In this document: positions 6,918 to 55,685 of the stretch, in pieces
How positions within the stretch are numbered: position 1 is the stretch's first letter
How the letters are laid out: every line of letters starts with the position of its first letter
DNA from: Bolinopsis microptera
Taxonomy: Eukaryota; Ctenophora; Tentaculata; Lobata; Bolinopsidae
DNA: 64,000 nucleotides
Assembly: GCF_026151205.1 (NCBI RefSeq)
Contig: NC_087077.1
Coordinates: forward strand, 5,542,483 to 5,606,482
Direction: 5' to 3'
The notes under the pieces: model-generated
What the model saw: the letters and a program-made list of their open reading frames with translations, nothing else
Database searches by the model: none
What the model was told of the DNA's origin: nothing
Translations under genes and position numbers: made by a program

Positions 6918-7400
6918 AACTAAAGCTGCAAAAATGACTGATGCTTAAAGCTGTATATTGCTTATAATATTTTCCCTGGAAAGTCGTGGACAATGGTACA
7001 TATTATTATTATGCTTAGACTATTATTTTAAATTTACAACTAAGTAAACGACCCTATCGTCCCCAATGGGTTAATAAAGTTTCGCATCATAGAATACGTG
7101 CACGTCGAGGACCATTGTTAACTACGGTCTCGTGATCAGCTCACAGAACACGTGACTTTTAATACCCTGTGATTACCATTACCTCTGATTAAGTTAACTA
7201 ACATTCTTCTTTAATCACCTTTCACAAGGGAAACTGAACACGGCAGTGGACCCGTGGAGTGGATTTGTTGGGCCTGGTTAAAATTCGTTGGATCCTGGTT
7301 TACGTCTAAATTGGAGATTTCACTTCAATTCCACTATATTTTTAGTCAGGAAAATTAGTGCCCGTATGGAAAAAAGTATAAACAAGGTGGTAAATATACT

Positions 7401-34131: not shown

Positions 34132-34920
34132 CTGCGCTGCGCACTCAATGAGGCTTCTAGGTCGGCGAGAAGCGCTACTGTGCCGCGCCGAGCTGAGATG
34201 AATTGACATCGTCAATTAACTTACCTGGGGACCTCAGGCTATCATGTTCATAAACATATAGAATAGAGATTACTAATCTCAGATTAGGCGGAATGACAGG
34301 CTGAGCGCGGCCCAGTTTTAATACTTTCAAGAGTTTTAATACTTTCAACACTACTATATAACAAATAATTTGAGGATGTCCAATATGTCCATGGCTTGCT
34401 AAAGTCAACTGCATCGGGGGTACTATGATGGTCCAGGGGGTGCTGAAACAGAAGACTGGCACTCTTAACCTATTAAGAAGTTAAGTAGTTGTAGTGAATA
34501 ATGTTTCTGTTTGGCAATGTATAACTCCATTCACACCACAATCCACAATTGGACAATTGGACAACCCTGATTAATGTGTAGATAGTGTTGAAAGAATTTT
34601 AAACTTTTAACTTGAACATCACTTCTGATAACTTTTGGGGCTGTGCTCCAAGAACAGGCTGACATATTATGTGGCCTATGGATTATATATGTAATGTATT
34701 CTGATTCAATGATAGGGCTTGCCAGTCCAACCACCTCATATTTTTCATACTCACTCACTCTCTTGTCCCATGTGTCGTAGTCCGTCAGTCTGTTCAATTT
34801 TTCAATCTTTTGAATCATTTTGACTAATCCCGTTTACACTTTCATTGTTGTAAACTGGATTTTTTCTTCCAATACAGAACATTCGAAACTGCTATCTGCT
34901 CTTCTTTCTTTTCAGGGAGT
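34132..34920. other. Flank and 5' region of the AlkB-type LINE
   Basis: The 5' end of the LINE is not delimited. A minus-strand frame of 95 codons at 34531-34818 has protein-like codon use but no recognised family. A pyrimidine-rich TTCTTTCTTTTCAG just before 34917 looks like a splice acceptor and may mark the 5' UTR of the element. Confidence 0.35.
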
Positions 34921-36945
34921 GTGCTGGTTGGACGTGAAGGTGCCCCCTGGTCTGTCTGGTACCCTCAACGCTTCTACGCCATGATTGATACATCCAACGA
35001 CACTCACCCAGAAAAGTGTGAGAGTCCACAACCTGTTCCGGACCAGACTACACCCGCTACGGTTCTGGACCAGACTACACCCACTATAAATATCATTGCC
35101 GATATTGATGTTCAAGTACTGAACGACGTCGACAAAATACTTCATGAATCAGAGGAAAATAAAAACTGTAGCAGCCTTATTAGTTTCTTCTCAAATGGGT
35201 CTGCCCCCTTCGACAACTTTTTGTTAACTCATTCGCAGAGCCTGCGCTCAGAGATAGATATCATCAAGCTTAACATTTCTAACCTTTTGAAAGTTGAAGT
35301 GAACAACTTTGGAATCATAACGCCATCTATGGTGAAGGGTTGTTCCTCTCTTAATAAAATCACCCTGGCAGAGGGTCTCCTATCCTTGCTTGGCCTTGCT
35401 GAAAGTGTTTGTGCTGTTGTTAGTGGCAAGAAATGTGACCACGACGTTAAGTCCCCGTCATACTTGTCAGCTCCCTCCAGCATTCCAATGGGTCATACTA
35501 TCTCTGACGGAAGCTCTATACACAAGTCTTTAGAAGCCATCCAAATATCCATCAAAAGCTTGAAAGACAACGATAGCCATCTTAGGACTCTTGACTCCAT
35601 CAACTCCAAGCTTGCTGAACTTAAACTTGATATTAACTGTTTCAAAAACAGTAGGTCTTCCAACGTGTCCACTCCTGACCTGGCCTTACCTCCTTTTATC
35701 ATAGGGTCACCAGCAGCCTGCGAATCAGACCATGAACAACTCCTACTGGATGCACAGAAGCCATCAAGTGCAGACGAACCTAAGTCCAAGCACATTATGT
35801 CTTATGTACCAGAATTCATTGATACCACCTTGAACTCTGGGCTCTTAGATTTCCTTGATCAACAGAAAGATGCTTTTGACTGTAACTCAGAAAATGGGCA
35901 TGGAGTTATAAGCTTTGGAGAACCATATGATTACCCTGGGGCAAAAGCTGCTAAGCCCAAATCAGAAGACCTCCCCGATGTTCTTGTTGAACTTGCCTCA
36001 AGAATAAAGAAGCATTGCCCTGGTACAGTTATTAATCAATGCTTGATCAACCGGTACAATGATGAGAGCAGCTTTCTCCCCAAACACTCGGACAACGAGA
36101 ACTCGCTTGTGCATGACAGTTCGATTTTCACAGTATCCTTAGGAAGCCAGTGCTCGGTTAAGTTCTCAATGAAAGGCTCAACAAATGGGGAAGTCATTGA
36201 GACGATAGAGGGACGCAGTCTTTATATCATGAGCAAGCAGTCCCAGTTCCTCTGGGACCACAGAATAGATAAGAGCACTGAGAAGAGGGACATAAGATTC
36301 AGTATAACGTTCCGTTATGTTAGCAACAGCACCAATGCAACATTGATTATTGGTGACTCAAACACCCGGTTCCTCAGGTTTGGTGCAGGGAAAGGGACAT
36401 TTGGTCACAAACTGCCTGGAAAAAGAGTTGAATGTTTCACAATAGATCAGTTAGACCCTGCTATTTGTGTAGGATACAAGAACGTTGTAGTACACTGTGG
36501 TGTAAATAATATTAAAAGGGGAGGGGGTGATGTTAAACATTGGGCTAATGAGCTGACGAAGAAGCTCAAGAATATTTGTGATTTGTGTCCATATTCTAAA
36601 GTTATAGTCTCACCCATCCTACCAACTAGGTCCTCCTGGCTGAATGACAGAGCCATGGAATTTAATAGTTTATTATTTGGTTACTGTAATACTAACACTA
36701 GGATAGGAACTTTAGATTTTGATAGTTTTGTCGATGAAGAGGGTCTACTGAACAAGCAGTTCTGTAGATACAAGAAGCCGGATGACCCAATCCACCTTGG
36801 ATCAAACGGTATCTTTAAACTCTCCCCCGGGGCAATTGCCCATAAGATCCTAGGTAGCCCAGTTGATGGGAGGTTGTTCAGTGCTGTTGCCAAGGCCCAA
36901 AATAGATTTTCCCCACGTCCCCGTAGATCTGTACTTCAGTCATGA
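34921..36945 (+). CDS. LINE ORF1 with AlkB-like dioxygenase and SGNH esterase domains
   Basis: 674-residue frame (674 from 34921; Met at 34981 is an alternative start). Residues 1-320 are polar with coiled-coil-like stretches. An AlkB-type 2-oxoglutarate/iron(II) oxygenase follows at about 325-468. It has an H389-S-D391 pair, a distal H447 and the RDIRFSITFR arginines that bind 2-oxoglutarate, so all metal ligands are present. An SGNH/GDSL hydrolase lies at about 474-650, with GDS (S480), the glycine and asparagine blocks (HCGVNN at 525-530) and D622-x-x-H625. SGNH esterase domains are known in ORF1 of CR1-type LINEs. AlkB repairs or demethylates alkylated nucleic acids; a role in protecting or modifying the retrotransposon RNA is inference. 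The stop overlaps the ORF2 start as ATGA (36942-36945), suggesting coupled reinitiation. Confidence 0.8.
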   Translation: MLVGREGAPWSVWYPQRFYAMIDTSNDTHPEKCESPQPVPDQTTPATVLDQTTPTINIIADIDVQVLNDVDKILHESEENKNCSSLISFFSNGSAPFDNFLLTHSQSLRSEIDIIKLNISNLLKVEVNNFGIITPSMVKGCSSLNKITLAEGLLSLLGLAESVCAVVSGKKCDHDVKSPSYLSAPSSIPMGHTISDGSSIHKSLEAIQISIKSLKDNDSHLRTLDSINSKLAELKLDINCFKNSRSSNVSTPDLALPPFIIGSPAACESDHEQLLLDAQKPSSADEPKSKHIMSYVPEFIDTTLNSGLLDFLDQQKDAFDCNSENGHGVISFGEPYDYPGAKAAKPKSEDLPDVLVELASRIKKHCPGTVINQCLINRYNDESSFLPKHSDNENSLVHDSSIFTVSLGSQCSVKFSMKGSTNGEVIETIEGRSLYIMSKQSQFLWDHRIDKSTEKRDIRFSITFRYVSNSTNATLIIGDSNTRFLRFGAGKGTFGHKLPGKRVECFTIDQLDPAICVGYKNVVVHCGVNNIKRGGGDVKHWANELTKKLKNICDLCPYSKVIVSPILPTRSSWLNDRAMEFNSLLFGYCNTNTRIGTLDFDSFVDEEGLLNKQFCRYKKPDDPIHLGSNGIFKLSPGAIAHKILGSPVDGRLFSAVAKAQNRFSPRPRRSVLQS

Positions 36946-37935
36946 TAGTCAAATTAATATGCGAAATTTGCTGCTGCTGCAATAGACGTGTGCGTGCTGG
37001 ACATCCATTCATAATTTGTCAGATGTGTGACAAAATAATGCACAAAAAATGCAAAACTGATGATAACATAGTCAAATTTCGAGATGGAACATACTGCAAA
37101 ATATGCACTGATGCCAATGATATTGTTCGGTACAACCCTTTCTACCAAGCTCCCCACTTTGCAAACAATGGCCTCATTGATGATGAGCCAGTCAATTATA
37201 TAGAATCTATCTACAATAGCTCAAAGGTTCTTGAAAATTGCAAAATATTCTCCATAAAAGAGTTGAATGCCACCATCCTACCTAAAAATTCAGTTAAATA
37301 TTTGTCCAAATTATTTCTTAACATTGATGGAAATGCATCCAACTTTGACAACTTTGCAGTTGAGCTGTCTTGTATCGACCACAAATTCTCTGTTATCGGC
37401 CTTGCAGAAACAAACACCAATCCCGAAAATGGAGCCCTGTATCAGCTTAACGGATACTCCTCCTGTTACCAATCACGTTACTTTTGTCAAAAGAAAAACC
37501 AGTTCAAGAGTAAAGGGTCAGGAGTGTGTCTTTACCTGCACGATTCCCTTAACTTTAACAAGATTACTGGCTTATCTCTCTGTAATGAACACATAGAATC
37601 ACTATTTGTATCTATCACTAGCTTGCAAGACCCAACTGTTGTAGGGGTTATCTACCGTCCCCCAAACGCATCACTTGAACTGTTCAACGAAGCATATGTT
37701 CGTATTCTCTCAAAATTGAATGGCAAAAAAGTATACATTCTTGGTGATTTCAATGTCAACATTTTGAAAGACCCATCTCCATCAGAGGACAAATTCCAAG
37801 AAATAATATTCAACAACGGCTTCACACCAACCATATCAGTACCAACACACCAAATGCCTGGCTGTTCCAGGACTTGTATTGACAATATCCACACCAATGT
37901 AGTAGACCAATCCCTTATTTCTGGTGTGATATCTG
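36942..37935 (+). pseudogene. LINE ORF2, zinc finger and first part of endonuclease
   Basis: ORF2 of the same LINE. Residues 1-56 are a cysteine-rich PHD/RING-like finger (CEIC...C..CC, H, C..C ending YCKIC). An apurinic-type endonuclease (EEP fold) follows from about residue 120, with IGLAETN, a GVIYRPP strand, ILGDFN and CIDNI motifs. The last motif, a histidine-rich SxHHP segment, is separated from this part by the 391-bp satellite that starts at 37936. The open frame runs only a few codons into the repeat, so the protein is broken. Confidence 0.8.
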
Positions 37936-40735
37936 GTTGTGGAACACAACAAGAAAATTGAGAATAATCTTGTGCGAGGGTAGGGACCCAGATGTCGTTT
38001 CTAACCCAAATAAACTTTAAGGAGGCTTCTCATCAGTAGCCGCACCTCCTTACTCGGTTTCTGAACTGGAATTCTATGGGCTTCCAGACGGCCAGACCGA
38101 GTATTACCACCCCATCCTTCTAGAGTTCATCACAAGTAGCACCCACCTTGAAGATCTTTGACACCCAGACACACCCCATTGGCGAACAAACTTTGGATAT
38201 AATCTTACATGCTCCCGAAGGAATCCCTGGTTTATGGTCTTTCTCATCGTCACTAGCACTTTCACTAGAGTCACCAGCCCTTTCACTGGAGTCATCAGCC
38301 CAATCACTGAAGTATACAGAAGTATAGTTGTGGAACACAACAAGAAAATTGAGAATAATCTTGTGCGAGGGTAGGGACCCAGATGTCGTTTCTAACCCAA
38401 ATAAACTTTAAGGAGGCTTCTCATCAGTAGCCGCACCTCCTTACTCGGTTTCTGAACTGGAATTCTATGGGCTTCCAGACGGCCAGACCGAGTATTACCA
38501 CCCCATCCTTCTAGAGTTCATCACAAGTAGCACCCACCTTGAAGATCTTTGACACCCAGACACACCCCATTGGCGAACAAACTTTGGATATAATCTTACA
38601 TGCTCCCGAAGGAATCCCTGGTTTATGGTCTTTCTCATCGTCACTAGCACTTTCACTAGAGTCACCAGCCCTTTCACTGGAGTCATCAGCCCAATCACTG
38701 AAGTATACAGAAGTATAGTTGTGGAACACAACAAGAAAATTGAGAATAATCTTGTGCGAGGGTAGGGACCCAGATGTCGTTTCTAACCCAAATAAACTTT
38801 AAGGAGGCTTCTCATCAGTAGCCGCACCTCCTTACTCGGTTTCTGAACTGGAATTCTATGGGCTTCCAGACGGCCAGACCGAGTATTACCACCCCATCCT
38901 TCTAGAGTTCATCACAAGTAGCACCCACCTTGAAGATCTTTGACACCCAGACACACCCCATTGGCGAACAAACTTTGGATATAATCTTACATGCTCCCGA
39001 AGGAATCCCTGGTTTATGGTCTTTCTCATCGTCACTAGCACTTTCACTAGAGTCACCAGCCCTTTCACTGGAGTCATCAGCCCAATCACTGAAGTATACA
39101 GAAGTATAGTTGTGGAACACAACAAGAAAATTGAGAATAATCTTGTGCGAGGGTAGGGACCCAGATGTCGTTTCTAACCCAAATAAACTTTAAGGAGGCT
39201 TCTCATCAGTAGCCGCACCTCCTTACTCGGTTTCTGAACTGGAATTCTATGGGCTTCCAGACGGCCAGACCGAGTATTACCACCCCATCCTTCTAGAGTT
39301 CATCACAAGTAGCACCCACCTTGAAGATCTTTGACACCCAGACACACCCCATTGGCGAACAAACTTTGGATATAATCTTACATGCTCCCGAAGGAATCCC
39401 TGGTTTATGGTCTTTCTCATCGTCACTAGCACTTTCACTAGAGTCACCAGCCCTTTCACTGGAGTCATCAGCCCAATCACTGAAGTATACAGAAGTATAG
39501 TTGTGGAACACAACAAGAAAATTGAGAATAATCTTGTGCGAGGGTAGGGACCCAGATGTCGTTTCTAACCCAAATAAACTTTAAGGAGGCTTCTCATCAG
39601 TAGCCGCACCTCCTTACTCGGTTTCTGAACTGGAATTCTATGGGCTTCCAGACGGCCAGACCGAGTATTACCACCCCATCCTTCTAGAGTTCATCACAAG
39701 TAGCACCCACCTTGAAGATCTTTGACACCCAGACACACCCCATTGGCGAACAAACTTTGGATATAATCTTACATGCTCCCGAAGGAATCCCTGGTTTATG
39801 GTCTTTCTCATCGTCACTAGCACTTTCACTAGAGTCACCAGCCCTTTCACTGGAGTCATCAGCCCAATCACTGAAGTATACAGAAGTATAGTTGTGGAAC
39901 ACAACAAGAAAATTGAGAATAATCTTGTGCGAGGGTAGGGACCCAGATGTCGTTTCTAACCCAAATAAACTTTAAGGAGGCTTCTCATCAGTAGCCGCAC
40001 CTCCTTACTCGGTTTCTGAACTGGAATTCTATGGGCTTCCAGACGGCCAGACCGAGTATTACCACCCCATCCTTCTAGAGTTCATCACAAGTAGCACCCA
40101 CCTTGAAGATCTTTGACACCCAGACACACCCCATTGGCGAACAAACTTTGGATATAATCTTACATGCTCCCGAAGGAATCCCTGGTTTATGGTCTTTCTC
40201 ATCGTCACTAGCACTTTCACTAGAGTCACCAGCCCTTTCACTGGAGTCATCAGCCCAATCACTGAAGTATACAGAAGTATAGTTGTGGAACACAACAAGA
40301 AAATTGAGAATAATCTTGTGCGAGGGTAGGGACCCAGATGTCGTTTCTAACCCAAATAAACTTTAAGGAGGCTTCTCATCAGTAGCCGCACCTCCTTACT
40401 CGGTTTCTGAACTGGAATTCTATGGGCTTCCAGACGGCCAGACCGAGTATTACCACCCCATCCTTCTAGAGTTCATCACAAGTAGCACCCACCTTGAAGA
40501 TCTTTGACACCCAGACACACCCCATTGGCGAACAAACTTTGGATATAATCTTACATGCTCCCGAAGGAATCCCTGGTTTATGGTCTTTCTCATCGTCACT
40601 AGCACTTTCACTAGAGTCACCAGCCCTTTCACTGGAGTCATCAGCCCAATCACTGAAGTATACAGAAGTATAGTTGTGGAACACAACAAGAAAATTGAGA
40701 ATAATCTTGTGCGAGGGTAGGGACCCAGATGTCGT
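37936..40735. repeat. 391-bp satellite, 7.2 tandem copies
   Basis: Units start GTTGTGGAACACAACAAG at 37936, 38327, 38718, 39109, 39500, 39891 and 40282, with a partial eighth from 40673 to 40735. Spacing is exactly 391 bp. The copies look identical wherever compared, including the two overlapping minus-strand frames (79 and 72 codons) in every unit. The period is not a multiple of three, so the array cannot be one continuous coding repeat. It sits inside the endonuclease coding region of a LINE. The ORFs probably reflect the origin of the unit from a coding sequence rather than present function. Confidence 0.95.
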
Positions 40736-41365
40736 CTCCCACCATCACCCTGTATTCACTCTTGTTGAGCTTCCCCCTAACTCTGTGCCTAAACCTGATT
40801 CACCAGACAAAATTACCATACACTACGACTATTGTAATGCTAACCTAGAGAAGCTCTGTCTTGAAATAGAAAACGATATAGATAGGTTCCAGCACAGCTG
40901 TGACACATTTGACTCTTTCATGCAGTTATTTCAAGAAAAGATAGATTTGTCTTGCAAACTTCTCACTCCTAGAACCACTAAACGCAACAGCATAACTAAC
41001 CCTTGGATTACCCAGGGGCTAATTAATTCCATAGACAAGAAAGCCAGGTTGTATTTCGAATGAAAGAAGACTTGTACATAAAAACTACCTGACGGGGATC
41101 AAAACAAGCACATCTGCTACAAGGAATTCGACAAGTTTCTCAAAAACTCAATAAATATGGCAAAAGCTATGTGCTATACTAGAAAATTCGAGAAGTACAG
41201 CATGAACTCAAAAAAGACCTGGGAAGTTATCAATGAACTCCGTGGTAAGAATATGTCTAGACGTAAGGACGATTTTGTCATAGATGGCCAGAGAATTACT
41301 TGCAGACGAATAATTGCTAACAAATTTTGTGAATACTTTACATCTCTTGCAAGCAATCTCAATAG
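40736..41365 (+). pseudogene. LINE ORF2 continuation (endonuclease end to pre-RT)
   Basis: Resumes right after the satellite with the HHHPVF motif that closes the EEP endonuclease, then a linker. It breaks at a stop at 41061-41063, and continues in another frame through KTWEVINELRGKN, VIDGQRI and FCEYFTSLASN, the segment that normally precedes LINE reverse transcriptase. The RT core is missing after about 41365, where AT-rich sequence begins. Confidence 0.75.
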
Positions 41366-41565
41366 AAATTTGTATTGTCGAACAATAGTATTAATAAAAC
41401 AAAAGTTAATAAAACAAAAGTTAAATTTATTACCAATTATTCAATCAATACATATCATAAATTCTAATATTGGAAACACAATGCAGAATGGATGTCTTAA
41501 ACTATAATTTTGTTGTCACTAATAATCTATTTACTTTCAAAGTTGAAATTTAGTTAAGTATGAAA

Positions 41566-42307
41566 TGTTATAATATATGAGTTCTAAGATTATTCTTTGT
41601 ATTATAAATATATATTATAGCTAATGTGAGAAGGTGTCACGGTGAAGAAGAGGTAAAGAAGAGATCCAACGAGGAAGGAGTAACAGAAGGTGTGTTAGAG
41701 TAACAGTGCTGTGTAGAGGTGTACCAGCCTGCGAAGTCCTTCGTGGATAGTGTAGTAGAACACCGGTAGGTTCTAGTGTAGGTTATAGTTTAGGTTTATT
41801 CTTTTATATTGATTGATGATAGTTGTAGGTTTATATATTTCTTATGTTGTAAATGATTCATATTTATTGTATTACTTATGAATCATATTTCAGGTGTTTT
41901 TAGTGTGTGTGTAGTATTGTAGTGGAGTGTGGAACGAAGATAAGAAGATATAGTAAACAGTAGCTAGGAGTGTAAGTAGTAGTCAACTAGAAGAAAGAAG
42001 ATAGTAACGAAGAAGTGTATTTTGTATAAACATAGTTTTAGTAGTATATTTTAGTAGGAAGTAAAGACTTTTAGTTCGGATATTATTTGGTGATATTTTA
42101 GTGTAGTAGTTTTAGTAAGTAGTTAGTTAGTAGTTAGTTTATAGTGGGAATCGGGTACAGGTCTAGGGAGGTTAGTGAGTAAGTGAATTATTATAATATC
42201 TAGTGTTAATTTATTAACACCTTCTATTTCAGTTTATTTATTATAATTCCGAGTTTTATTTTGTATTAACATTCCATTTAATTGTGTATCAGGAATAGGT
42301 TGTAACA
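41566..42307 (+). repeat. Left LTR
   Basis: 742-bp long terminal repeat with TG...CA ends. AATAAA-like and TATATAT sequences occur in the first 60 bp. Confidence 0.9.
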
Positions 42308-42406
42308 GTGGTAGCAGGAAGAAAACCATCAGGAGTCAAAGAAAAGTAAAGTGTTAAAAGTAAAGTAAAGTGTAAAAGAAAAGTAAAGATTTAAAGTAAA
42401 GTAAAG

Positions 42407-44599
42407 ATGGGTAGTGAAAGAATACCAGTATTGAATGATGCGACAGATTATGGTCTATGGAAGAAAGAAGTCAATATATGGGTACTTGGAACTCAAGCTA
42501 AAGAAGCACAACAGGCGGCCAGATTGATTGGATTTATGTCTGGAAAAGCTCACGAAGCAGCAATACAGATTCCTCCTGAAGAACTCGGAACTGTAGCGAA
42601 GCTGACAACTGAGTTGGACAAACTCTTCTTGAAAGATGACACGCAAAATTTGTTTCAAGCCATAGAAGACTTTGAGCAGTACAACCGCTCTAAAGAAACT
42701 AGTATTGACGAATACATCAGATCATTTGAACAGAAATACAAGCGCCTAAAGGCTCTTAGATCAGACAAAGAAGCTTATGAGGACGGGATTAAAGCATTCA
42801 AGTTACTTCACCAAGCAAGCCTAACATCAGAACAGAAAAGACTCATACGAGCAACTACAGAAACGCTTACGTATGATGGCATGGTAAAAGCTCTGAAACG
42901 TACTTTTGGAGATGGTTCTGGAATTATTAGCAGTACCAGCAATGATCAAGGAAAGAACGCAAATCCTTACTTCTCAGCAGCTAGTTCTAGTGGTATAAAA
43001 ATCAAAGAAGAACCAGTATTTTATACCAAAGATTCTTACCACAGCAGCAGCTCAGCTAGTGACAGAAGCGGATATTGTTCGTCTGGTAGTGACAAGAGAA
43101 ACCAGCATAGCAGTACTAGTGACGGAGAAAAAGACGATGAAGAGAATGTTCTGTATTTCCAAGGTGGAAAATACCGAAGACAAAGACCATCAGATCAATC
43201 CTACCAAAGACCTAACTCGTCAGAGCAACAGTTTCAAGGACAAAGACCTACAGGACAATCCTACCAAAGACAAAGTCCCAACTACTACCAACAACAACAT
43301 CTTATGAAAAAGGCAGAGAATTTCAAGAAAACAACTTGTCTAATATGTGACTCGCCTGAACATCGAGTAATCGGGTGTCCTTATAATAAGTTCACTCCAG
43401 AAAGAAAGAAAGAAGATGACAGTAAAAGATTGACGTTTTTAACCAAGGTAGTACAACTGGAATCAGCAATAGCCCATCCAGAAAGAGCTGAAAGATGCAC
43501 ATTTCTTCTCGAAGAAACAGTGAATAAAGCACTGTTGGACACAGGAGCAAGTTCTACTGTCTGTGGAAAGCAATGGTTAAAGATCTATAAAGAATCGTTA
43601 TCACCAGAAGAAGCTATAAAGATAAAGACTGAACATTGTGAAACAACGTTCCGCTTCGGAGACGGAAATAGGGTAACATCTACTCAACTGGTAACACTAC
43701 CAGTAAACATGTTTGGAAGAAACTTCACTCTGAAGACTTATGTAGTAAATAGTGAAATACCGTTGTTACTATCAAGACAAATGATGAATGACTTTCGTTT
43801 TGTTATCGACATGAGGCAGAAAAAAGTTTATGCAATGGGAGGAGAGGAACCCATTTTAGATACTACATCAGGGCATTTAGTGGTGTCAATAAACGGAAGA
43901 GCGTTTAACCGCGTTAACCCCTGCAGGATAGTACAAAATGAACAGAGCTCACAAACTGATGATGTACCAGAGAAAGAGCAAAGACCTCATCCAAAGGCAA
44001 AGACTCGTGATTCTCATGAGAGTGAGGGAGAGAAAAGAATCCCGACAAAGACAGCGACCTGGTTCTACGAGACTGTGTATTATTCAGACTCAGACTCAGA
44101 AGAAGATTCAACATCTACTTCAGCAATTAATGACGAAGTTGATACAGCAGTACGACAAGAGGAGACCACACCCTTACCACAAGAGGCTACCCCCTCAGTT
44201 GAAGTAGAGGAAATCACACCTATACCACAAGAGGTTACCCCTCCGGTTGAAATCAAAGAAGAAGAGACTCAACCGAAATGGACAAGTAAAGAACAACCTA
44301 AAGGAAAGAAAAACGCAGTCATACTGAAAAAGGGTGACACAATAAGATTCAGAGATGGAGACAATGAAGAATGGAAATGTGGGCTGATAGACAGTCGAGC
44401 AGGAAAGGCGACAGGTGCACAAAAGAACAGCTATAATGTGCACGTTGATGGTGAGGATGAGGCTCAAGTAATCGACCTAACTGATAAAAAGGTGGAAAGA
44501 TTGCTTTGTACAAAAGAAGACAAACTCACAGTCACGAAAGAAGTACCAAAACAGGTCCCAAAAAAGGTCCCAACGCAGAAGATCGTCAGAAAGAAATAG
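42407..44599 (+). CDS. Gag-protease polyprotein of LTR retrotransposon
   Basis: 730 residues. The N-terminal ~190 residues are a copia-type Gag (DYGLWKKEV near the start, then a helical capsid-like region with FEQYNRSKETSIDEYI). A Ser-rich linker and QSYQRP repeats follow. A CCHC zinc knuckle is at 311-324 (CLIC....H....C) and a retropepsin active site LLDTGAS around D378. The C-terminal part is acidic/Ser-rich. It ends in a segment (W..G.I.SRAGKATG near residue 660-680) resembling a domain normally found near integrase C-termini of related elements. That suggests an internal deletion has joined the protease to the end of pol, or that the element has always carried it. The frame is intact, consistent with a young non-autonomous element. 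Confidence 0.8.
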   Translation: MGSERIPVLNDATDYGLWKKEVNIWVLGTQAKEAQQAARLIGFMSGKAHEAAIQIPPEELGTVAKLTTELDKLFLKDDTQNLFQAIEDFEQYNRSKETSIDEYIRSFEQKYKRLKALRSDKEAYEDGIKAFKLLHQASLTSEQKRLIRATTETLTYDGMVKALKRTFGDGSGIISSTSNDQGKNANPYFSAASSSGIKIKEEPVFYTKDSYHSSSSASDRSGYCSSGSDKRNQHSSTSDGEKDDEENVLYFQGGKYRRQRPSDQSYQRPNSSEQQFQGQRPTGQSYQRQSPNYYQQQHLMKKAENFKKTTCLICDSPEHRVIGCPYNKFTPERKKEDDSKRLTFLTKVVQLESAIAHPERAERCTFLLEETVNKALLDTGASSTVCGKQWLKIYKESLSPEEAIKIKTEHCETTFRFGDGNRVTSTQLVTLPVNMFGRNFTLKTYVVNSEIPLLLSRQMMNDFRFVIDMRQKKVYAMGGEEPILDTTSGHLVVSINGRAFNRVNPCRIVQNEQSSQTDDVPEKEQRPHPKAKTRDSHESEGEKRIPTKTATWFYETVYYSDSDSEEDSTSTSAINDEVDTAVRQEETTPLPQEATPSVEVEEITPIPQEVTPPVEIKEEETQPKWTSKEQPKGKKNAVILKKGDTIRFRDGDNEEWKCGLIDSRAGKATGAQKNSYNVHVDGEDEAQVIDLTDKKVERLLCTKEDKLTVTKEVPKQVPKKVPTQKIVRKK

Positions 44600-45888
44600 A
44601 GACAGGACTGTTCCAGAATTCGCAGTGTCAACCATCAAAGACCTGAGCTTATACTCAGGAGTGTCAAAGAACCATTCATGTCATTTTAATTACCAACACG
44701 TGTAATGTAATTTACCAATTTGTGTCATTTTATTAATAATTACTTTAACAGATTTGTTTTACAAGAATTTATCTATAGTTTTGTATTGTAGTTCAAAACT
44801 ACAACTTTTAACGGGAATTTTATATACTTTTTACGTGCATATTTAAACGCTTGTTTTAATATTCATGTATATTTTCAATTTTGTAACCTGTTTAACAGCG
44901 AGTGTTTTGACAGGGAAATTTGTAATATTTCAAACATCACCTGTTATGATGTTGATAACTGCAGTGTGGCAGTGTTTCCTAACAGTTAGATTTTAAAATT
45001 TTAGAAAGTTGGGTATTTTAAACTAAGAAAATTGGATACATTCACTGTGTAAAGTTAACCTCATTTACGTATTTTCCTATAATTTTAACCCCGAATTACA
45101 GATCCCTATCTTCATGAACGGAAACTTTTTAAACTTTCAGGTCGAGTATATGATCTCGAACTGGTAACTATTAACAACAAATTTTCAGTGCCAAAGTCCT
45201 ATCTCCTAACATCACTTTATTTTTTTTCGCAGTTAATTTCTTGTCAGTTAGTCAGTACCTGTCAGTATCAATTTTAACACTGCTAACAAATAGATCAATT
45301 CATATAAAATATAAATATCGAGTGTGCATGTTAAGATATTGTTAAAGCTGTTGATTAGTTTGTATCTTACTGGAAAACTGAGTTTTAGAAACAGTTGAGC
45401 AATAACCTATATTTTGATTGTTACAGTTGGTGGAAGCTTTTTTCCAGTTCAACTAAGAGAGGTTTTGCTAAACTGTCGGCTTATTCTTCGGAATATTGAC
45501 CTAGCTCCAGTTTAATCAGTTTTCTAGTAAAATTCTAACACAGCAATTTCTCAAGAAAAACGGTATGTTTTAAAAAGGGAGTTTCGGTGAAAACACCATT
45601 TTTAATCGTAAGTTATGATTTTGCAGAATTCTGCAGTATTATGGGGTACTTTGAATTTTGTAAATCTGATAATTTTTGATTCAGATGATTGAGACGGAAG
45701 TTTTAAAATGACGTGGATTTTAAACGATTTTTTAAGTAGACTTTTTTCCTTTGTGAGAGGAAAATTTTGCTTATTACTAGCAAAATTTGAAATTTAGAAC
45801 GGCGCGGCGTGTTGTGCACGACAGTTCTTTTTGTATTTTGGTGGATCGGTTTTCGGGCTTTTTTAAAAAATTTTTAAATTGGGATGAG
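44600..45888. other. Non-coding internal region of the LTR element
   Basis: 1.3 kb between the gag-protease stop and the right LTR with no open frame of note. A pol gene would be expected here in a complete element. Confidence 0.7.
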
Positions 45889-46633
45889 TGTTATAATATA
45901 TGAGTTCTAAGATTATTCTTTGTATTATAAATATATATTATAGCTAATGTGAGAAGGTGTCACGGTGAAGAAGAGGTAAAGAAGAGATCCAACGAGGAAG
46001 GAGTAACAGAAGGTGTGTTAGAGTAACAGTGCTGTGTAGAAGGTGTACCAGCCTGCGAAGTCCTTCGTGGATAGTGTAGTAGAACACCGGTAGGTTCTAG
46101 TGTAGGTTATAGTTTAGGTTTATTCTTTTATATTGATTGATGATAGTTGTAGGTTTATATATTTCTTATGTTGTAAATGATTCATATTTATTGTATTACT
46201 TATGAATCATATTTCAGGTGTTTTTAGTGTGTGTGTGTAGTATTGTAGTGGAGTGTGGAACGAAGATAAGAAGATATAGTAAACAGTAGCTAGGAGTGTA
46301 AGTAGTAGTCAACTAGAAGAAAGAAGATAGTAACGAAGAAGTGTAATTTGTATAAACATAGTTTTAGTAGTATATTTTAGTAGGAAGTAAAGACTTTTAG
46401 TTCGGATATTATTTGGTGATATTTTAGTGTAGTAGTTTTAGTAAGTAGTTAGTTAGTAGTTAGTTTATAGTGGGAATCGGGTACAGGTCTAGGGAGGTTA
46501 GTGAGTAAGTGAATTATTATAATATCTAGTGTTAATTTATTAACACCTTCTATTTCAGTTTATTTATTATAATTCCGAGTTTTATTTTGTATTAACATTC
46601 CATTTAATTGTGTATCAGGAATAGGTTGTAACA
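45889..46633 (+). repeat. Right LTR
   Basis: 745 bp, nearly identical to the left LTR. The preceding sequence has only a weak purine tract (GGGATGAG). Confidence 0.9.
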
Positions 46634-46638
46634 TGAAA

Positions 46639-48194
46639 TGCCACCACATCATAGTTAGGGTAAAATATAATTCTTAAAAATTTTAAAATTGAGAAGATTG
46701 CTCAATGACTTAAAATTTAAAATTTAGCAAAAGATATCTAATTTTTAAATAGTTGGTTACAGTTTATGACAAGATGACAGTACTGGCATGATCAATTTTA
46801 TTGTGGCTGGTAAAAGGACCCAGTTGCCTGTAAGGGCTTTACCGAACCCCTGGGGACCACAATGTGATAGGATCAGGCCAGATGTAGAGCAATTTATTTA
46901 TTTCGGAGCTATGGTTACGTGGTATAGCTGGTGGTCATGTTTAAAGGTCAGTTTATCTTTGTGTGCTAATTATCCATCCAGATGCTTAGTGATGTGAGTA
47001 AATCATGCCCTTCTACAATATATAACGTTTAACTATAAATTTGTTTTTACCACAGAAACTGTGGCACTAAGGTCAAGAATTAAAAATTTGTACTCTCATT
47101 GATAGTTAAAGCGTTTTTTTCCCCAGCACTACTACACAACAAAAACCTGTCGGCCCACCGAGGAAACACAGTCGCAGAACAGGGAACCCAATTGTGCTCC
47201 TCTATTCTGCGATCGTGTGTATTTACTATAAACTAGCTAAATGCAGTTAGTAAAATTTTCTGGAATCATTAAAGTCGTTTGATTAGTTTATGTGTCAAAG
47301 TAATGTCCATGATAATCATATATTTGGATCCCCGTTGGGCAAACACTCGTCCCAAAGGCTAAGGCAAACCTTTCAATGTTTCACCATACGAAGTAAGGAG
47401 ATTTGTACACATACTCAGCCTACAACTCCACCCATGGGACGAGACGCATATACCCAGTCAGCAAACACTATACACAACATACACACGATAACAAACAATG
47501 TATAATGCCATTACTTCATTTAAAAGAAAATATATCTGCTATCTAATTTTAAAAATTGAAGAATAAACCTGAAGAGAGGAGAAGGAGAGAGGGGTTTGGG
47601 AGAGGTAGAGTAGGAAAACAACAGGATCCTGTGCCGCAGGATTTTAAAATTTGTTGTATGATGATTCGTTTTGTGTCGTCTCTTAGATTAATATAGGTCT
47701 GATACCCTTGTCATGGTTTTTTGCAATAACACCGTGGTTTACTCATATGATTATGTTTACTAAATCAACCTATTTCAATGATAATGCATGGTATGACTGA
47801 ATTGTAAACACGTGATAATTGAACGAAAAATAAATGATGAACATGATTCAAAAACTGTAAACCACCAAATGAATTATCGCTTAAATTTAAATAAGTATTT
47901 AAACAAAAACCATCATGTGCCGTTAAGCAGCAGGGCGCGGCTCATCTGGGCCACAGCAATTCGGCGAAAATGGGTTCGAAAAAGCCACTATTGGCACTCG
48001 AGTCCTTGATCTTTCCGATGGTTCACTGGGGCTTTTGAGCTGCCGTCCTTCAGCTTCTGTAAACTGAAATTACTACAAATCCAAGTTGAGGCAATCAGCC
48101 GACGCGCGGCTTTTATGGTTATATATGATATGTTTAATCTGTAATAAAGATCAAAATTTAAATTTGTATCTCTAAAATTTGTTTCTCTATCCAC
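46639..48194. other. Intervening DNA between retroelement fragments
   Basis: No gene recognised. A GC-rich block at 47925-48010 contains GGGTTCGAAAAAGCC and GGCACTCGAGTCCTT, similar to a block at 50610-50650, so a dispersed repeat family is present. Confidence 0.5.
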
Positions 48195-49586
48195 TTTAGA
48201 CCGTCACGTGTCAAAGAGGAAGTAGAAAATGACGAGAACATATTAACTTTGAACAATGTTGTCATTAAAAAAGTCCAAGAAGCTAAATTTCTAGGTGTCA
48301 TTATCGATGATCAACTTAATTGGAAAACTCACACACGGTCACTTAACTCAAAACTTAAATGTGAAGTAGGTAAGTTATGCAGAATACGACACATTGTCCC
48401 TAAACAGTATTATAAGGATTTATATCATACTTTATTCGAATCACATTTGGGATTTGGAATATCTGTATGGGGTGGTATTAGCAACAACCGACTCGAACCT
48501 CTCTTTAAAACACAGAAAAAGTGTATAAGAATTCTATTTGGGGATAAAGAAGCTTACTTCTGGCAACTGGCTCCTTTTGCCAACTGCTTTTGGTTTAAGC
48601 GCTGACTCACATTTGGAACTGGCACTGGTATAATTGTAATATCCTACGAAGTCAGCATGCTATATTATTTTGCAAAACTCGTTTAATATCTTGACAATAT
48701 TTAAAGTTTATGGTTTTAGGTTTAGGCGCGGCGCACGCGCCGCTTATATGTTATAGCTCATTCAGCTTCTGTTTTCAGCGCTGTGTTGCTACACACTGTA
48801 TAGCATGTGGGTCAAGCGCGGTGCCGCGCCTAAACAGCAAAAGAGTTATTTATTTTAAAATTTATTTTTGTATCTCAAAAATGACGTAAAGTTTTTGATA
48901 TGACGTAGAATTAAAGCTATTTCCGTACAGCCTAAGTGCTAAGCATGCTCGTTAGAAAAACTATGAACAATGAACATAACATGCTAGCTTTCTTTATTTT
49001 TGTAAGTCGCGTCGGCTGACATCTTGGGTTGTACTGGATGTAACAAGTTTATTATCGGATGTCTACTTATATTTATTATGATATCATTATTCATTGTAAT
49101 GGCAATAAAATTTAAATTTTGTTTTACCTAAAATTTTGTTTTACTTAGAAAAATTTAGAACTTGTGCCCGGACACGACCATTTGGTGAGCAAAGACTAGG
49201 TGTGGACTTTTACGAAAAAAGAACACTCTAAGCCCTTGTTTAAGAATCAGAAATTGTTAACTGTTCACAACCTGTATAAGTACACTTGTCTCTTAGAACT
49301 ATTCAAAATTAATAAGTTAGAGGAACCATTATCACTGTACTCATCATTCAACAGGTCACCACGACGAGAGGATTATTTCATCACATCACAACCATCCTCA
49401 CAATTCATCTACCAATCATCCTACATGTGGAACAGCTGTCGACAAACATCAAGTAAGATAATTTTTAATACTCCGACAAACGGGTTCAAGAATACATTGA
49501 AAATTGCTTTACAAGAATTGCAATTCAAGCGTGATACACTTGATTGGTGTGAGCTTAATTTTGCCACAAATGAGCTCAAGTTTTGA
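48195..49586 (+). pseudogene. CR1-like LINE 3' end split by an insertion
   Basis: The first piece (to about 48555) carries the end of a CR1/jockey-type reverse transcriptase: AKFLGVIIDDQLNWKTH, then LYHTLFESHLGFGISVWG and the thumb KTQKKCIRILFG. The frame is interrupted at about 48556 by roughly 590 bp and resumes near 49147, with a TCARTRPFG and LFKNQKLL...HNLYKYTC region, to a stop at 49584-49586. Orientation matches the AlkB-type LINE at 34921-41365, so it could be the 3' end of the same copy after loss of the RT core and insertion of the LTR element, or a separate copy. Confidence 0.75.
48556..49146. mobile_element. Non-coding insertion within the LINE 3' end
   Basis: Placed between ...GAAGCTTAC and TTAGAAAAATTT. 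Removing it restores a continuous conserved LINE frame, and TTAC occurs at both borders, so a short target duplication is likely. An internal hairpin pairs GTTTAGGCGCGG (about 48718) with CCGCGCCTAAAC (about 48825-48836). Family unknown. Confidence 0.6.
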
Positions 49587-51470
49587 TTAATGTGAGTTAC
49601 TAAAATAACCACTTATCTTTCCTCATACATGCAACCACTGCACTCCAACTAAACACATTATTTACCACAGTCCACACACCATACTCCACAGATGATATAT
49701 ATATATATATACACACAAACACACTAGTACTGAACAATTGCACTGTAAAACATGCTCACGATACACTCAAAATTGGAAATATTCAACGGCTCGTATATGA
49801 AACTTAGCGACTTACACTCAGTGTACACCCAGTGTTAACCAGTATTACACACTAGTAAATTCTACGTAACGCGCGAAAACAATAATTCTGTAGCGTTTTC
49901 ATTGTCACATCTCACGTCGACGGGATTAAACGCGCGCGCGCGTAACAACTTATCTTACTGCTAACTCAGCGACTAAACACACGACGACTTTGACTATTGA
50001 CAGATGATTAAACAATTGTGAGTTATGACGGACTTAACTGTATGGGTCAACTACTGAAACTGTATTGTTTACTATCTTATTCATTATACTGGACATGAGA
50101 TGACGAAGTATCTTAAGCAGCACTTTATACCCCCACTTAGAACTTGATTAGTCACGAACAATAGAATCATCAAAAACCAATACAATAAAACATCTTGATC
50201 AACAAATGCCTAGCAGCACCAGACAGCAGCCGTGTACCTTTTTCGACTCCGTGGAGTCCCTGATGGACTTTTGTTTACTTTTGTTAATAATCGGACCAAC
50301 CTTTCTTTCTCGAAACATGTATCCTATTGTATTTCATTATAGTATTAAGATGCGAAGATATACTAGATATTACAACGAAATAGCGGTATACCAAATTGGC
50401 CCTTGATATTAACTATAACCGTGTTGATGGTTTTAAATTTTGTATGTTGTAAGTATTTTAGTTTGTGAAGCGTTTACTACTCCCCTCAGCAAGACAGTTA
50501 GATTGTAGATTAATGATAATAATTGTCAAATGACGTTATATATTATATAACAGTTATAAATGTTCAATAGTTGTACTGTTGTAGAGCGATTTCAAGAGTA
50601 GTGGTCCACAGGGGTCCGAAAAAGCCGTACAGGCACTTGGGTCCTTATCCTTGTCACTAATCTCAATTGGATTCGGTTTATACAAAACATGAACATTTAG
50701 ACGTACACATTGACACGATATTTATTAGAAAGCAAAAAGTATAAAATAATACGTGCGTGCGCAGCTTGAGCCGCGCCGCATAAGAACGGATGCGTGCAGG
50801 GGCTGGAGTACGCTTGTATGTAGATTAATGAAATGTTGCATTGTAAATATTGAGTATTGACGATATTATTATGATCTAATAGTAAATTTTACAAAGCTGG
50901 CTTTGGATTTAGGTAAGATTATAATTTGTAATTTATTTTAAAAAAACCACAGATAGTTTTAAATTTATTTCTATTTGTCGTATAATCATGAACAATTTAA
51001 TCCTGTTTTCAAGAATGCGCGGCTTTGGCGGCCAGTTATTGACTTATACATTAAATTGAATTTTAAATAGAAATGTGAATATAAAACGATCTTCGGTGCG
51101 AAGCAAGAATACTAGTTTGCGCGGCGCGTCGAAGCGGCGAAGTCCTCCAAAGTAGAGCAAGTAGAGCTTGTAGGTTTACAACCTACCAGGACGCGCGTTG
51201 AGTACCGAGTTGGACTCGTCGACGGTCCTGTATATATATATATATATTTTGATGTTTACTTTCACCTCTGCATCTTTTGTTTATATCTTATGATTGAATG
51301 AGACTTACTCACAAATTTCCCATCTCAGTATTGATCTATTTTTGTCATGTTTTTAATTTACTTCATAGAACAGTTATTTTAATAAACTTGCTTTCAGAAT
51401 GAGACATGTAAAGATTACACAATCGATAGCTTAATGTGAATTTCGTGTTTTACTGTTTCACTGAATGTCT

Positions 51471-51474
<4 letters not shown>
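49587..51474. other. Intergenic DNA with GC-rich repeats
   Basis: Contains a (TA)n/(CA)n tract at 49697-49726, CGCG-rich stretches (49932-49944, 50757-50790, 51118-51135) and the GGGTCCGAAAAAGCC block at 50614. Nested small stems (GTAGGT/ACCTAC, CAGGAC/GTCCTG) lie at 51165-51235 just before a (TA)n run. No gene recognised. Confidence 0.5.
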
Positions 51475-51531
<57 letters not shown>

Positions 51532-51532
51532 C
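51475..51532. repeat. (TA)n microsatellite at the 5' edge of the Penelope element
   Basis: About 28 TA units. They read through in frame as alternating Tyr-Ile into the Penelope ORF, so the apparent start at 51465 is not a real start. Confidence 0.9.
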
Positions 51533-52885
51533 CAAGCGTCATGAATCTAAGTTGAAGAGAGATAAGGACTATGCTATTTATGTTGCACCTTCATATGTGG
51601 ATAATGCTAAACCTGTGAAGAAGAGGAGAAGAAGGAAGAGAAAAAAGATTAATCGTACTACATCCCACAGACATCAGAGGACGTTAATCAAAGGTACTCT
51701 TCCCAAGGTTGAAGACTTGTCAATGGAAAACATGTCCAGAACAGTTGTAAATCTTACAGACAAAGAGCTTAGTAAAGAGCAACTCTATGTCTTTTTCTTG
51801 TCTCACAAGTTTGCACCTACACCTCCCCTACCAGATCTAAGCCGCTTCGAGAACGATTTGTGTAGATGGTTTTCTAAAATGAGAGCTAAAGTTGTATTTG
51901 ATAGCTTTAAATGTGGACCCAACAAAGCAGATAAGAGAGTTACTGACATGGAACGTTGTCTTATAAAGACTGATGCATCACGTACTTTCGAATCTTGTAA
52001 AAACCCTGCACTTGAGGCGTTTATAAAATGCTGCAGAGCAGAAGTAGACCTCCACAGGCCAACTCAGAAATTCGTCTCACCAGATAACATCGCTGCGCCC
52101 ATCAGAGCAGCTCTCAAAGAAGTCAAAGGTTGGAAAGACATTGTTATCAGACCATTCGATAAAGGAGTAGGATTCTTCCTTCTTAGTGAAGAAGATTATA
52201 TTCAACGAATAGGTGTACATTTAAATGATAGATCTGTATATAGTATTGTAAATAATGTAGATGATTTAGTTGTAGAATTGATTGATAAAATTTCGAATTG
52301 GACAATTGAGTTTAAAGATGAATTAGGTATGTCCAAAAAAGGTCAAGGAGTGGGTTATTCCATGTACTGAGCTTAACCAGCCTGGAAACATGTACCTGAA
52401 TCCCAAGGCACACAAACCACCTTTGTATCCTGGGAGGATGATTACCACCGGCTGTGGTTCATACATTGAAAACCTTTCTGCCTTGACTGCGTATGAATTG
52501 AAGAAGGCTACTTTGAATTATAGAATTATTGATACCCCTCACTTTCTGAGGAAGATTGATAGCCTGAACGAGTCTAGCATATTGTTGGGAAAGGAGGTTA
52601 TACATGTTGCCATCGATATATCTAACATGTTTACCAACATTCCTAGGGATATGGGGATCCAACAATGCACTAAGCACCTGAATAAAAGGAGTAGTGGTGA
52701 TCAATTGTTTAGTACAGAATGCATTATTAGTGCACTAGAAATTACTCTTGATTACAACATTGCTTCATTTAACGGTATAACATACCGCCAGGAGCGTGGA
52801 GCAGCGATGGGTCCTAAGAACTCATGTGAGTATGCTGATTGTGCTATGGATAAGATTGATATCTTAGTTAAGGCCAGAGGGGGGG

Positions 52886-54318
52886 GTAAGGGGTCAAAAA
52901 ATTCTACCAAAATATTATTTTCTAAATCGATTTAATTTTTGATGACAAAAACATTGCTGCTATTCACATATTTGTAGCTGATTAACTTTATTTTATAATT
53001 GAGGTTAACCGATTTTCACAAAATTGACTATACAACATTGAGGTTAATAAAATTGAGGTTCATATTTTATTACACGCCATAATTTTTTGTTATTTCGGTC
53101 AGCAAATGTAAACTCTAAATTTTAGGTTCATAATTATCAGAAAAAGTAATATCCAAACGTGATTAAATGAGGTTAACCTCTTCTTTTAGATATATCGAGA
53201 ATAGATCAAATGATAGAGTTATTATTTTCATCGTAAGTTTACGGTATACAAATTTCTAAATAGATGACGTGTTGATTGACTTTCTTTTATCTTGAGAAAA
53301 TGAAAAAAATGAGGTTAACCATCACATTTTGGTACCGTAGGGAATATACATACGATTCTTACTTATGTAATGTACCACAATATCGAAGTGAGGTATCTAT
53401 TGGTATCACAATGCCTACAACTATAATCACGTGACAAAGGTGATTTGAACTGACCATATTTTAGTAGAAGATTTTACCCGTAAATGGCTAAAAAATGAGG
53501 TTAACCTCTCATTTTTTGAATATCTGACCAGTCAATTACATGTTAACCTCAAAAACTTAATCGTTATACTGTACAAATGTTTTACTACATATATAGTAAC
53601 ATATTGATAAACCAATCCCAGTGTTATATGGTCTAAAGCGAGGTTAACAACCAAATTCTAAGCAGTTAGTGTTTACAGGAAGTCTTGGTTAACCTCATTT
53701 TTTACAATACAAGGACATTAACTACTGAAAGTGGCTAAAATCATTTAGGAGACGGCCAGGTCTGATCAAGCAAACGTTATTAAGTGTATAAAAAGTCCTA
53801 ACTAACGAACTGTGATACATTCCAGTGAATATTCAAAATTTTGAAAACACTAAATTGCATCTATCTCAAAACACATTTTTTGACCTTTCGATTCCTTAGT
53901 TGAGAAAACCGGCCACTCCCTGATATTGAGATTTGGTACAGTGGTTCCTTGGACAACTATCTAGATATCTGGTGCAGCGATTTTTTTTATTTGACTCGTT
54001 TCTCGAATTATGAGGTTAACCAATTAAATTTTCCGAATTTTTGACATGGTTAACCTCATAATTTGAGAACAGAGTCAAATAAAAAAAATCGCTGCACCAG
54101 ATGTGAGGATAATTGTCCACGGAACCACTGTACCAAATCTCAAGATCAGGGATTGGCCGGTTTTCTCAACTAAGGAATCGAAAGGTCAAAAAAGTTACAG
54201 CCGTTTAAAGTTCCAGTTTAACATGTAATTACAGGTAAACCTCAAAATTGAGCGCGCGATATCTCAGAAGCGCAAGGTCAGATTTTGATCCGGTTTTTTT
54301 CTTTTTGTTCGTCTCCAG
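52886..54318 (+). other. Intron-like segment inside the Penelope RT
   Basis: Begins GTAAGG and ends TTTTTCTTTTTGTTCGTCTCCAG, an ideal donor and pyrimidine-rich acceptor. Joining 52885 to 54319 keeps the RT frame (a split GTA codon, phase 1) between motifs B and C. The segment contains about ten copies of GAGGTTAACC or GGTTAACCTC and a large inverted repeat (53876-54193). Confidence 0.75.
53876..54193. repeat. Imperfect inverted repeat with ~146-bp arms
   Basis: Arms 53876-54021 and 54048-54193 pair from TTTTTGACCTTTCGATTCC / its complement inwards to GGTTAACC / GGTTAACC, with a 26-base loop. A few mismatches are visible (for example TATTGAG against CTCAAGATC). Lies wholly inside the intron-like segment of the Penelope element. 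Confidence 0.85.
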
Positions 54319-55685
54319 TAGCTATTATCAAATATGCAAAAACTACAAAAGTGCCATTTACCCCCCCCTCTGGCCTTAACGAAGGAGATCTAGAATATGG
54401 CCCGCCTCATAGACCAGCATTCTGGGGTAGATTACGTGATGACATTTATATGGCTTGGCCCGGTACTGTTGAGGAACTATTACAATTCATGGAATGGCTC
54501 AATAGTATCCACCCAAACCTTTTGTTTACTTACGACTACTCTAGGGACGGCGTTGAGTTTCTAGACACCTATGTCTATGCTGTTGGTGATGTTGTCCACA
54601 CCAAACTCTACTCTAAACCTAGTGACACCCACTGCTACCTTATCCCCACGTCATGCCATAGGAACCATGTTGTAAAAAACATACCTTTTGGAGTGGCGAG
54701 GCGGGTGAGACAGAACAACAGTGAAGACACTAACTTCTTGGAGCAGAGAGAGGTCTATACACGTTACCTTCTAGCCCGAGGTTATCATTCCAGTATTATA
54801 GAAGATGCCTTTAACAAATTTAGTGATATAGCTAATAGGAAAAACTTGTATACCCTTAAAGACAAGGATGAGTCGACTGCCTGTTTAATACCCATGGTGA
54901 TGGATCAAAATCCAGCACTTCCCAACATGGGGGGCATTATCCATAAGTATAAGCACCTTCTCAACCTTGATCCGGCCCTGAAGAAGCTGGTACGTGCGGA
55001 CAGTGTATTCGTGAGTCATCGAAAGAATCAAACTATCGGTGGCATGCTTGTACACAATAAGTACCGTGCCAGTGGAACTTTAAACTGTGATAATGAGAGA
55101 GAAACAACTGCAAGTCAGATCCAGGAACCAGACTCCGAAAGTCTAAGGGCGGTTCCCGGGGCTGTCGACCCAGGGTGCCATGCTTGTGGTAAATGCTATG
55201 TTTGTAAGCAAAATTTCCTGTCCCCCTGTTCCAACTTTAGTAGTCACCATTCTAAACAAGTTTTCCCTATAACTAAGTATATATCTTGTCAGAGTTATAA
55301 CCTCATTTATTTAATGGAGTGTAAGACTTGTAAACAGTCGTATGTCGGTTATACTACCTCAAATCTCCCTAAGAGATTCTCTAACCATAAGAGTCACATA
55401 AAGAAAGGTATAAGAAGTTGTAAATTAGTTAACCATTTTTTAGATATTGATCATGATTTAGATTTTAGTACCATAGCCTCCTATAATTCCTCACTTAGTA
55501 AGCACCTTTCTGTCATTATAGTAGACGCTTTAGTATTTGAGCCTAATATTAGTAAAGCAGACAAAGAAAAGGCTATGGAAGCTAGAGAGGGGTTCTACCA
55601 GACCCAATTGAAAACCCTTGAACGGTTTGGGGGTATGAACACCCTTGATAGTAACCATATACTTTTTAAATCTGCCGGAGCTTAG

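Follow-up and report, generated by a model that had tools for sequence, protein, structure and literature searches.

AlkB-type dioxygenase domains are part of the viral replicase in some plant RNA viruses, and the locus analysed here resembles these viruses in that AlkB is used by an RNA-templated replicator, a likeness by description rather than by compared sequences. The nearest precedent is an orchid Ty3/Gypsy retrotransposon with an ALKBH5-like ORF, the AlkB domain of which binds RNA and demethylates m6A in vitro, according to the available part of the report (PMC9289625). Like the present element, it is a retrotransposon encoding an AlkB domain; however, it is a plant LTR element with an additional ORF, for which the available text mentions no esterase, whereas here the domain lies in a LINE ORF1 and its solved relatives are ALKBH3, ALKBH8 and ALKBH2. 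In its other half, the locus resembles the esterase ORF1 protein (ORF1p) of the zebrafish element ZfL2-1, which also has an SGNH domain with a catalytic triad, oxyanion residues and a transposon-specific His and Ser, encoded upstream of an ORF2 with endonuclease and reverse transcriptase (RT). In ZfL2-1, CR1 subgroup 7 and L2 subgroup 9, as given in the available part of a survey of such elements (PMC4120745), the esterase is combined with a coiled coil or zf/lz, whereas here an AlkB domain stands between the N-terminus and the esterase; Table 1 of that survey, covering 20 subgroups and 448 elements, gives AlkB in none. SGNH/GDSL modules also occur in unrelated retroelements, namely in the GDSL ORFs of bdelloid LTR and Athena elements, for which one account makes no mention of AlkB in its available part (PMC5408684). 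Among the open-licence PMC matches listed, none describes an AlkB domain in a LINE ORF1; the preliminary description of this DNA, made without a search, knew of no standard description of the pairing. An esterase-type LINE ORF1 to which an AlkB domain has been added, and which is spread unusually widely through one mobilome, appears new within the open-licence PMC text covered; a prior description in subscription papers, in RepBase or in work on Helitrons is possible. The wider question is whether methylation of RNA or DNA holds mobile elements in check and whether the elements fight back.

The window, i.e., the whole stretch of 64,000 nucleotides that was analysed (G000:C6:5542483-5606482), belongs to a genome of 264.65 Mb in 232 contigs. 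The preliminary description had assigned positions 34921–36945 to a LINE ORF1 fusing an AlkB-type dioxygenase to an SGNH esterase, and a 674-codon GTG frame is indeed present there on the + strand. The longest stop-free run here is 705 codons, versus 212 across 100 equally long windows generated by a first-order Markov model. A genome search with ORF1, in which 66 of 929 first-look candidates were scored, gave a match for all 66; 20 long examples (designated by L numbers below) were fetched, 19 of which were aligned, with L070 left out for its broken frame. The ATG at 34981 is likely the start of ORF1, giving 654 aa, because this Met is aligned in 18 of the 19 copies and the frame upstream of it varies between subfamilies; the single copy lacking it, L069, differs in its 5′ part. 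Residues in Pfam ranges are numbered along the 674-codon GTG frame and active-site residues from the ATG (654). A chance ORF or assembly artefact was ruled out by profile scores, copy number and dN/dS, a host AlkB–SGNH gene adjoining a LINE by the repetition of the ORF1–ORF2 unit at many places, and a single freak fusion by the recurrence of AlkB and SGNH across the genome.

Table 1. Features of the LINE copy in the window (positions are those of the window)
Feature	Position	Strand	Evidence and remarks
LINE copy	34331..41392	+	blastn vs L063, L064, L065, 98.3-99.2% identity per segment
ORF1	34981..36945	+	654 aa, ATG start; 66 scored genomic matches
ORF1 N-terminal region	34981..35775	+	acidic (34 D+E, 20 K+R), no Pfam match
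AlkB-type 2OG-Fe(II) dioxygenase domain	35776..36324	+	PF13532 E=2.8e-17; PDB ALKBH3/8/2; N357, Y359, H369, D371, H427, R439, R445
SGNH esterase domain	36325..36942	+	family-profile match PDB 4c1b E=5.5e-5; S460, G480, H505, N509, S544, D602, H605
ORF2 5′ part	36942..37935	+	PHD-like finger and first part of AP-type endonuclease; PF03372 E=4.8e-4, PF00628 E=0.097, both under cut-off
Tandem array	37936..40735	.	391-bp unit x 7.2, 100% matches, inside endonuclease-coding part
ORF2 resumed	40735..41392	+	last part of endonuclease and linker leading to RT; contains in-frame stop; LINE sequence runs to 41392

The profile PF13532 (2OG-FeII_Oxy_2) matches ORF1 residues 334–465 of 674 with E = 2.8e-17 and 64 bits (cut-off 31.2), inside the span (residues 325–468) that had been proposed as AlkB, and the domain also matches phrog_21963 (E = 3.9e-15). 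PDB sequence searches using a single protein returned solely AlkB homologues 3, 8 and 2 (17 rows each), while a family profile placed ALKBH3, ALKBH8 and ALKBH2 on top (5e-9 to 6.2e-7), with three unrelated rows below them at E > 0.5. The HxD...H iron ligands (H369, D371, H427) and the RxxxxxR arginines (R439, R445) noted in the preliminary description are present in the window and, together with the Asn and Tyr listed in Table 1, identical in all 19 aligned copies. By a profile score over the curated cut-off and by these ligand and arginine motifs, the domain belongs to the AlkB family.

The SGNH domain is matched by PF13472 (Lipase_GDSL_2) at residues 507–628 of 674 with E = 0.0035, under the Pfam cut-off, and remains under it when queried alone (E = 4.1e-4); a PDB sequence search with the single domain gave no match. 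A profile built from seven sequences of the family, however, matches PDB 4c1b at the E-value given in Table 1, and two SGNH esterases trail far behind it (E = 0.13 and 0.16). We take 4c1b to be the ZfL2-1 esterase; the PDB record itself shows the molecule name "ORF1-encoded protein". All seven residues named for ZfL2-1 in the available part of its report, S143, G165, H191, N195, S228, D279 and H282 (PMC3905857), have counterparts in the window, with spacings of 20, 25, 4, 35, 58 and 3 residues versus 22, 26, 4, 33, 51 and 3 in ZfL2-1. H505 and S544 correspond to the transposon-specific H191 and S228, and since the same text states that a double mutation of these two blocks the activity of ZfL2-1, their retention in the window ORF1 is a strong signature. 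All 19 aligned copies agree in the residues S, G, H, N, D and H, H505 among them, and 18 agree in S544, with M in L081. By its catalytic residues S, G, N, D and H, the protein is a predicted esterase-type (type IV) LINE ORF1p. The claim that an SGNH domain follows AlkB was thus borne out by the 4c1b match and the seven counterpart residues, and the profile searches that the preliminary description had proposed as a check, once run, placed AlkB over its cut-off and SGNH weakly by Pfam, backed by the family profile. Ahead of both domains, the first 265 residues of ORF1 contain 3 arginines. A coiled coil before the esterase was sought in this region, the best heptad windows being residues 80–114 and 170–207, and gave no significant signal, 84 of 300 shuffles reaching the best score.

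The ORF1 stop and the ORF2 ATG overlap as ATGA at 36942–36945, as they do in 14 of the 19 aligned copies; in L066–L069 the ORF2 ATG lies a few bases before the TAG stop, and in L074 ORF2 is lost at the ORF1 junction. The window copy reaches the 5′ end common to L063 and L064 (which have 6.6 kb in common), is split by the tandem array and stops inside ORF2. Where the array was inserted, 6 bases of the LINE site are missing compared with L063. Owing to the array, the in-frame stop and the truncation, the ORF2 of the window copy is dead, and its ORF1 is open. The open ORF2 of L064 (1134 residues queried) matches RVT_1 with E = 2.6e-36; its endonuclease models stay under cut-off (Exo_endo_phos_2, E = 0.0067), its PDB list is headed by L1 ORF2p and R2 RTs, and the genome has 44 ORF2 matches. 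By its multi-copy ORF2 with endonuclease and RT, the element is thus a LINE (non-LTR retrotransposon), and together with the profiles and residues above this supports the original proposal of a LINE ORF1 fusing AlkB to an SGNH esterase.

Among ten copies viewed, eight have a common 5′ start (not L067 and L068) and eight carry a 17-bp unit, once or twice, at their end (all but L079 and L082); no clear target-site duplication was seen in the ten, whose ends share words of 5–10 nt, some of them inside the element. According to the available part of PMC4120745, the CR1_4 and L2_5 subgroups have RRM or Tnp22 domains in ORF1 and a PHD finger that is probably encoded at the start of ORF2. The present element likewise has a PHD-like finger before the endonuclease, and this finger and the short tandem 3′ ends fit the CR1/L2 group, a likeness of these features rather than a placement of the RT among reference clades.

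At least 645 of the 674 residues are covered by 27 of the 66 ORF1 matches (the window copy included), two of which have an inside stop; their identity to the query falls at 98–100% (4), 85–86% (6) and 79–80% (17), and six further rows, spanning 81–669, are 52% identical. ORF1 is open over at least 600 codons in 19 of the 20 fetched copies (L070 being broken), and in half of the 20 an open ORF1 is accompanied by an ORF2 at least 1100 codons long. Nei–Gojobori dN/dS was calculated for five representatives, giving six usable pairs of ten, as the four L079 pairs had saturated dS. Across these six subfamily pairs, dN/dS was 0.060–0.194 for AlkB (with some dS values near saturation, up to 2.3), 0.097–0.146 for SGNH and 0.143–0.193 for the N-terminus; judged by these ratios, the AlkB and SGNH domains of the family are demonstrably under purifying selection. 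Four compared copy pairs are 99.6–99.8% identical over 5.9–6.6 kb, indicating recent activity. The modules of the family recombine, as read from two cases: L073 is a chimera whose ORF1 belongs to the 79–80% group and whose ORF2 shares 97% identity with the L079 one, the changeover lying close to the ORF junction (around 3551–3566 in ORF1 orientation), and the ORF1s of L063 and L075 differ by a dS of 1.5 in AlkB and 0.28 in SGNH, a gap which suggests mosaic ORF1s.

Across the genome, PF13532 has at least 151 matches (the best 150 of 587 candidates were scored, all over cut-off); those listed lie in open frames of 142 to 3,388 codons, and many have identical scores. The repair family HhH-GPD, used as a control, has one match; as host genes are split into exons in a profile search, this control can tell no more than that an ordinary repair family has not been amplified. 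When three lists of the best 150 matches each were merged within 450 nt, at least 361 AlkB places resulted, a count which includes host ALKBH genes and in which a few places may be two pieces of one copy. A listed AlkB starts within 900 nt upstream on the same strand at 70 of the 150 best SGNH places, compared with a mean of 0.125 in a shifted-place control. Such a partner is found at 55 of the first 74 SGNH places (the window's families, fragments included) and at 15 of the 76 others listed, where, among the matches listed, a missing partner is not evidence of absence. Each of the 20 best-scoring AlkB loci has a frame fitting the ligand pattern. At 11 of the 20 loci fetched from the PF13532 search, the AlkB frames were scanned for GDSL/SGNH; six (L086, L087, L093, L096, L101 and L102) have a match with E ≤ 0.01 in the AlkB frame itself, all under the Pfam cut-off, with weak scores for L096 (0.0027) and L102 (0.0078). 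In L085, AlkB (1063–1950) and SGNH (2662–3438) lie in separate neighbouring frames, with SGNH downstream. No GDSL/SGNH was found in the scanned frames of L083, L084, L097 (cut by the locus end) and L099, of which L083 and L084 look like host ALKBH genes.

Several of these loci belong to other elements. In L093, an endonuclease and RT follow on the same strand (RVT_1, E = 1.1e-40), and the first catalytic block of its esterase is non-canonical, so that this esterase may be inactive; in L102, an RT follows on the same strand (E = 8.3e-29), in which a simple DD-motif pattern was not matched. The RT of L064 is 31% identical to that of L105 (the element of L093) and 26% to that of L104 (the element of L102), indicating LINEs deeply different from the window family. 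L096 is followed on the same strand by a frame with a PHD finger and a weak endonuclease match, the fetched sequence stopping before any RT. Its ORF1 and the L064 ORF1 align over 456 aa that span AlkB, the junction and SGNH (31%, E = 4e-49), and hence the fusion probably predates the split between L096 and the window family; L096 carries M and V at the positions of ZfL2-1 H191 and S228. The pair thus recurs in at least four LINE families, in three of which RT was seen. Endonuclease-like frames also lie on the opposite strand just upstream of the AlkB–SGNH frame in L093 (2670–3359, +) and L098 (2–565, −), which are one family.

The pair also occurs in reverse order. One 2459-codon frame, in L087 (with L103 at G000:C12:2468302-2475678), holds SGNH (E = 4.2e-7, just under cut-off), AlkB and then, in L103, DUF6570, Helitron_like_N (E = 1.8e-22) and PIF1 (E = 6.3e-21), and by these domains, checked in this one copy, L087/L103 is a predicted Helitron with the order SGNH–AlkB. 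Its AlkB has at least 10 further matches at 78–94% identity, five of them in frames of 2,225–3,388 codons. Beyond the one element of the preliminary description, the genome carries hundreds of AlkB places, and the pairing is present in several LINE families and in a Helitron. In an AlkB tree of 27 rows, the deep forks are unsupported (the program warns that long branches meet), and only two joins between groups are supported, i.e., the window family with L096 (98/95) and L085 with the host-like L084 (95/96). Short exact peptide scans, which reach close relatives only, found none of ORF1, AlkB or SGNH in IMG/VR and none of ORF1 in GTDB contigs; in phages, no relative of the SGNH domain was found, and AlkB relatives occur in 6 records at 25–30% identity.

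With confidence slightly above even, we propose that the ORF1 protein of this recently active LINE family would use its AlkB domain to demethylate the element's own RNA in the ribonucleoprotein (RNP), or its cDNA. The ORF1p would coat the element RNA together with ORF2p, and the AlkB domain would remove the methyl groups of m1A, m3C or m6A by oxidation, either in the bound RNA or in the new cDNA strand, and could thereby clear lesions at which RT stalls or wipe out marks set by the host. As the substrates of AlkB relatives vary, the one proposed here is a guess. The esterase would anchor the RNP at membranes or lipids, in keeping with ZfL2-1, for which liposome binding as well as hydrolysis was measured according to the available text (PMC3905857). 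Protection of RNA or removal of host methyl marks, the functions put forward in the preliminary description, is now better motivated by the purifying selection, the invariant ligands and the recurrence of the domain, and the recurrence of the AlkB–SGNH pair in mobile elements suggests a use in protecting or cleaning their own messages; should AlkB and a lipid esterase have come together in both orders, one in LINEs and the other in the Helitron, the two activities probably work together. Counted against RNA demethylation are the inability of the window copy to make ORF2p, the SGNH score under the Pfam cut-off and the AlkB dS values near saturation. Unlikely, in our view, but the best placed of three rivals to the RNA reading, is an action on DNA, in which AlkB would demethylate or dealkylate target-site DNA or new cDNA and thereby aid integration or prevent silencing. 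The nearest solved relatives do include ALKBH2 and ALKBH3, AlkB is also found in a Helitron, which moves as DNA, and, in the available part of one study, knocking out Alkbh1 increases N6-mA on young L1s, accompanied by more repressive marks (PMC4982230). However, the carriers in which a replication enzyme was seen are three RNA-templated LINE families against one Helitron, and the orchid precedent was demonstrated on RNA (PMC9289625, available part).

The AlkB domain might also double as the nucleic-acid contact otherwise missing from esterase ORF1ps. According to the available part of PMC3905857, no esterase ORF1p in RepBase had an RRM or other structural RNA-binding domain, which, together with the few N-terminal arginines here, makes AlkB a candidate for the nucleic-acid-contact part said to be missing from these proteins. 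The same two points would favour a fold acting mainly as a binding module in place of the RRM or basic motif of other ORF1ps, with catalysis secondary; we consider this somewhat less probable again than action on DNA, as none of the 19 family copies deviates in its ligands and the ligand pattern is fitted at the 20 best AlkB loci, including families with RTs 26–31% identical to that of the window family. The number of AlkB places, at least 361, and the occurrence of AlkB and SGNH in LINEs and, in reversed order, in a Helitron would suit a counter-defence accessory swapped between unrelated elements and directed not at the element's own RNA but at the RNA modification or small-RNA defence of the host, but no host target is known and the AlkB tree leaves exchange between families undecided, so that we regard this as very improbable. 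More credible than these three, yet still tentative and short of even, is that AlkB–SGNH may be a shared accessory module of the mobilome, present in deeply diverged LINE ORF1s and, reversed, in Helitrons, which selection has kept catalytically intact and which erases epitranscriptomic or DNA-methyl marks to counter host control. The genome offers many natural enzymes for assay in its hundreds of AlkB places, those of one LINE family being demonstrably under purifying selection by their substitution ratios.

The surroundings of the LINE copy hold further elements. LINE-like pieces at 48162–49586 were considered as its 3′ end and ruled out, as the copy ends at 41392 compared with L063–L065; they are pieces of the C-terminal RT region which, judged by eye alongside the aligned ORF2s, seem to come from a distinct though related LINE family. 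An LTR element at 41566–46633, with LTRs (41566–42307 and 45889–46633) that are 99.5% identical, contains a 730-aa gag-like ORF (weak match) and gave no RT by a simple RT-motif pattern. The frames at 51465–55685 are presumably Penelope-like, and a GIY-YIG domain is found at 54252–55685 (E = 5.7e-7). Near the start of the window, a duplication (2617–3848 and 5746–6967) is 92.8% identical, with a C-type lectin match in the second copy.
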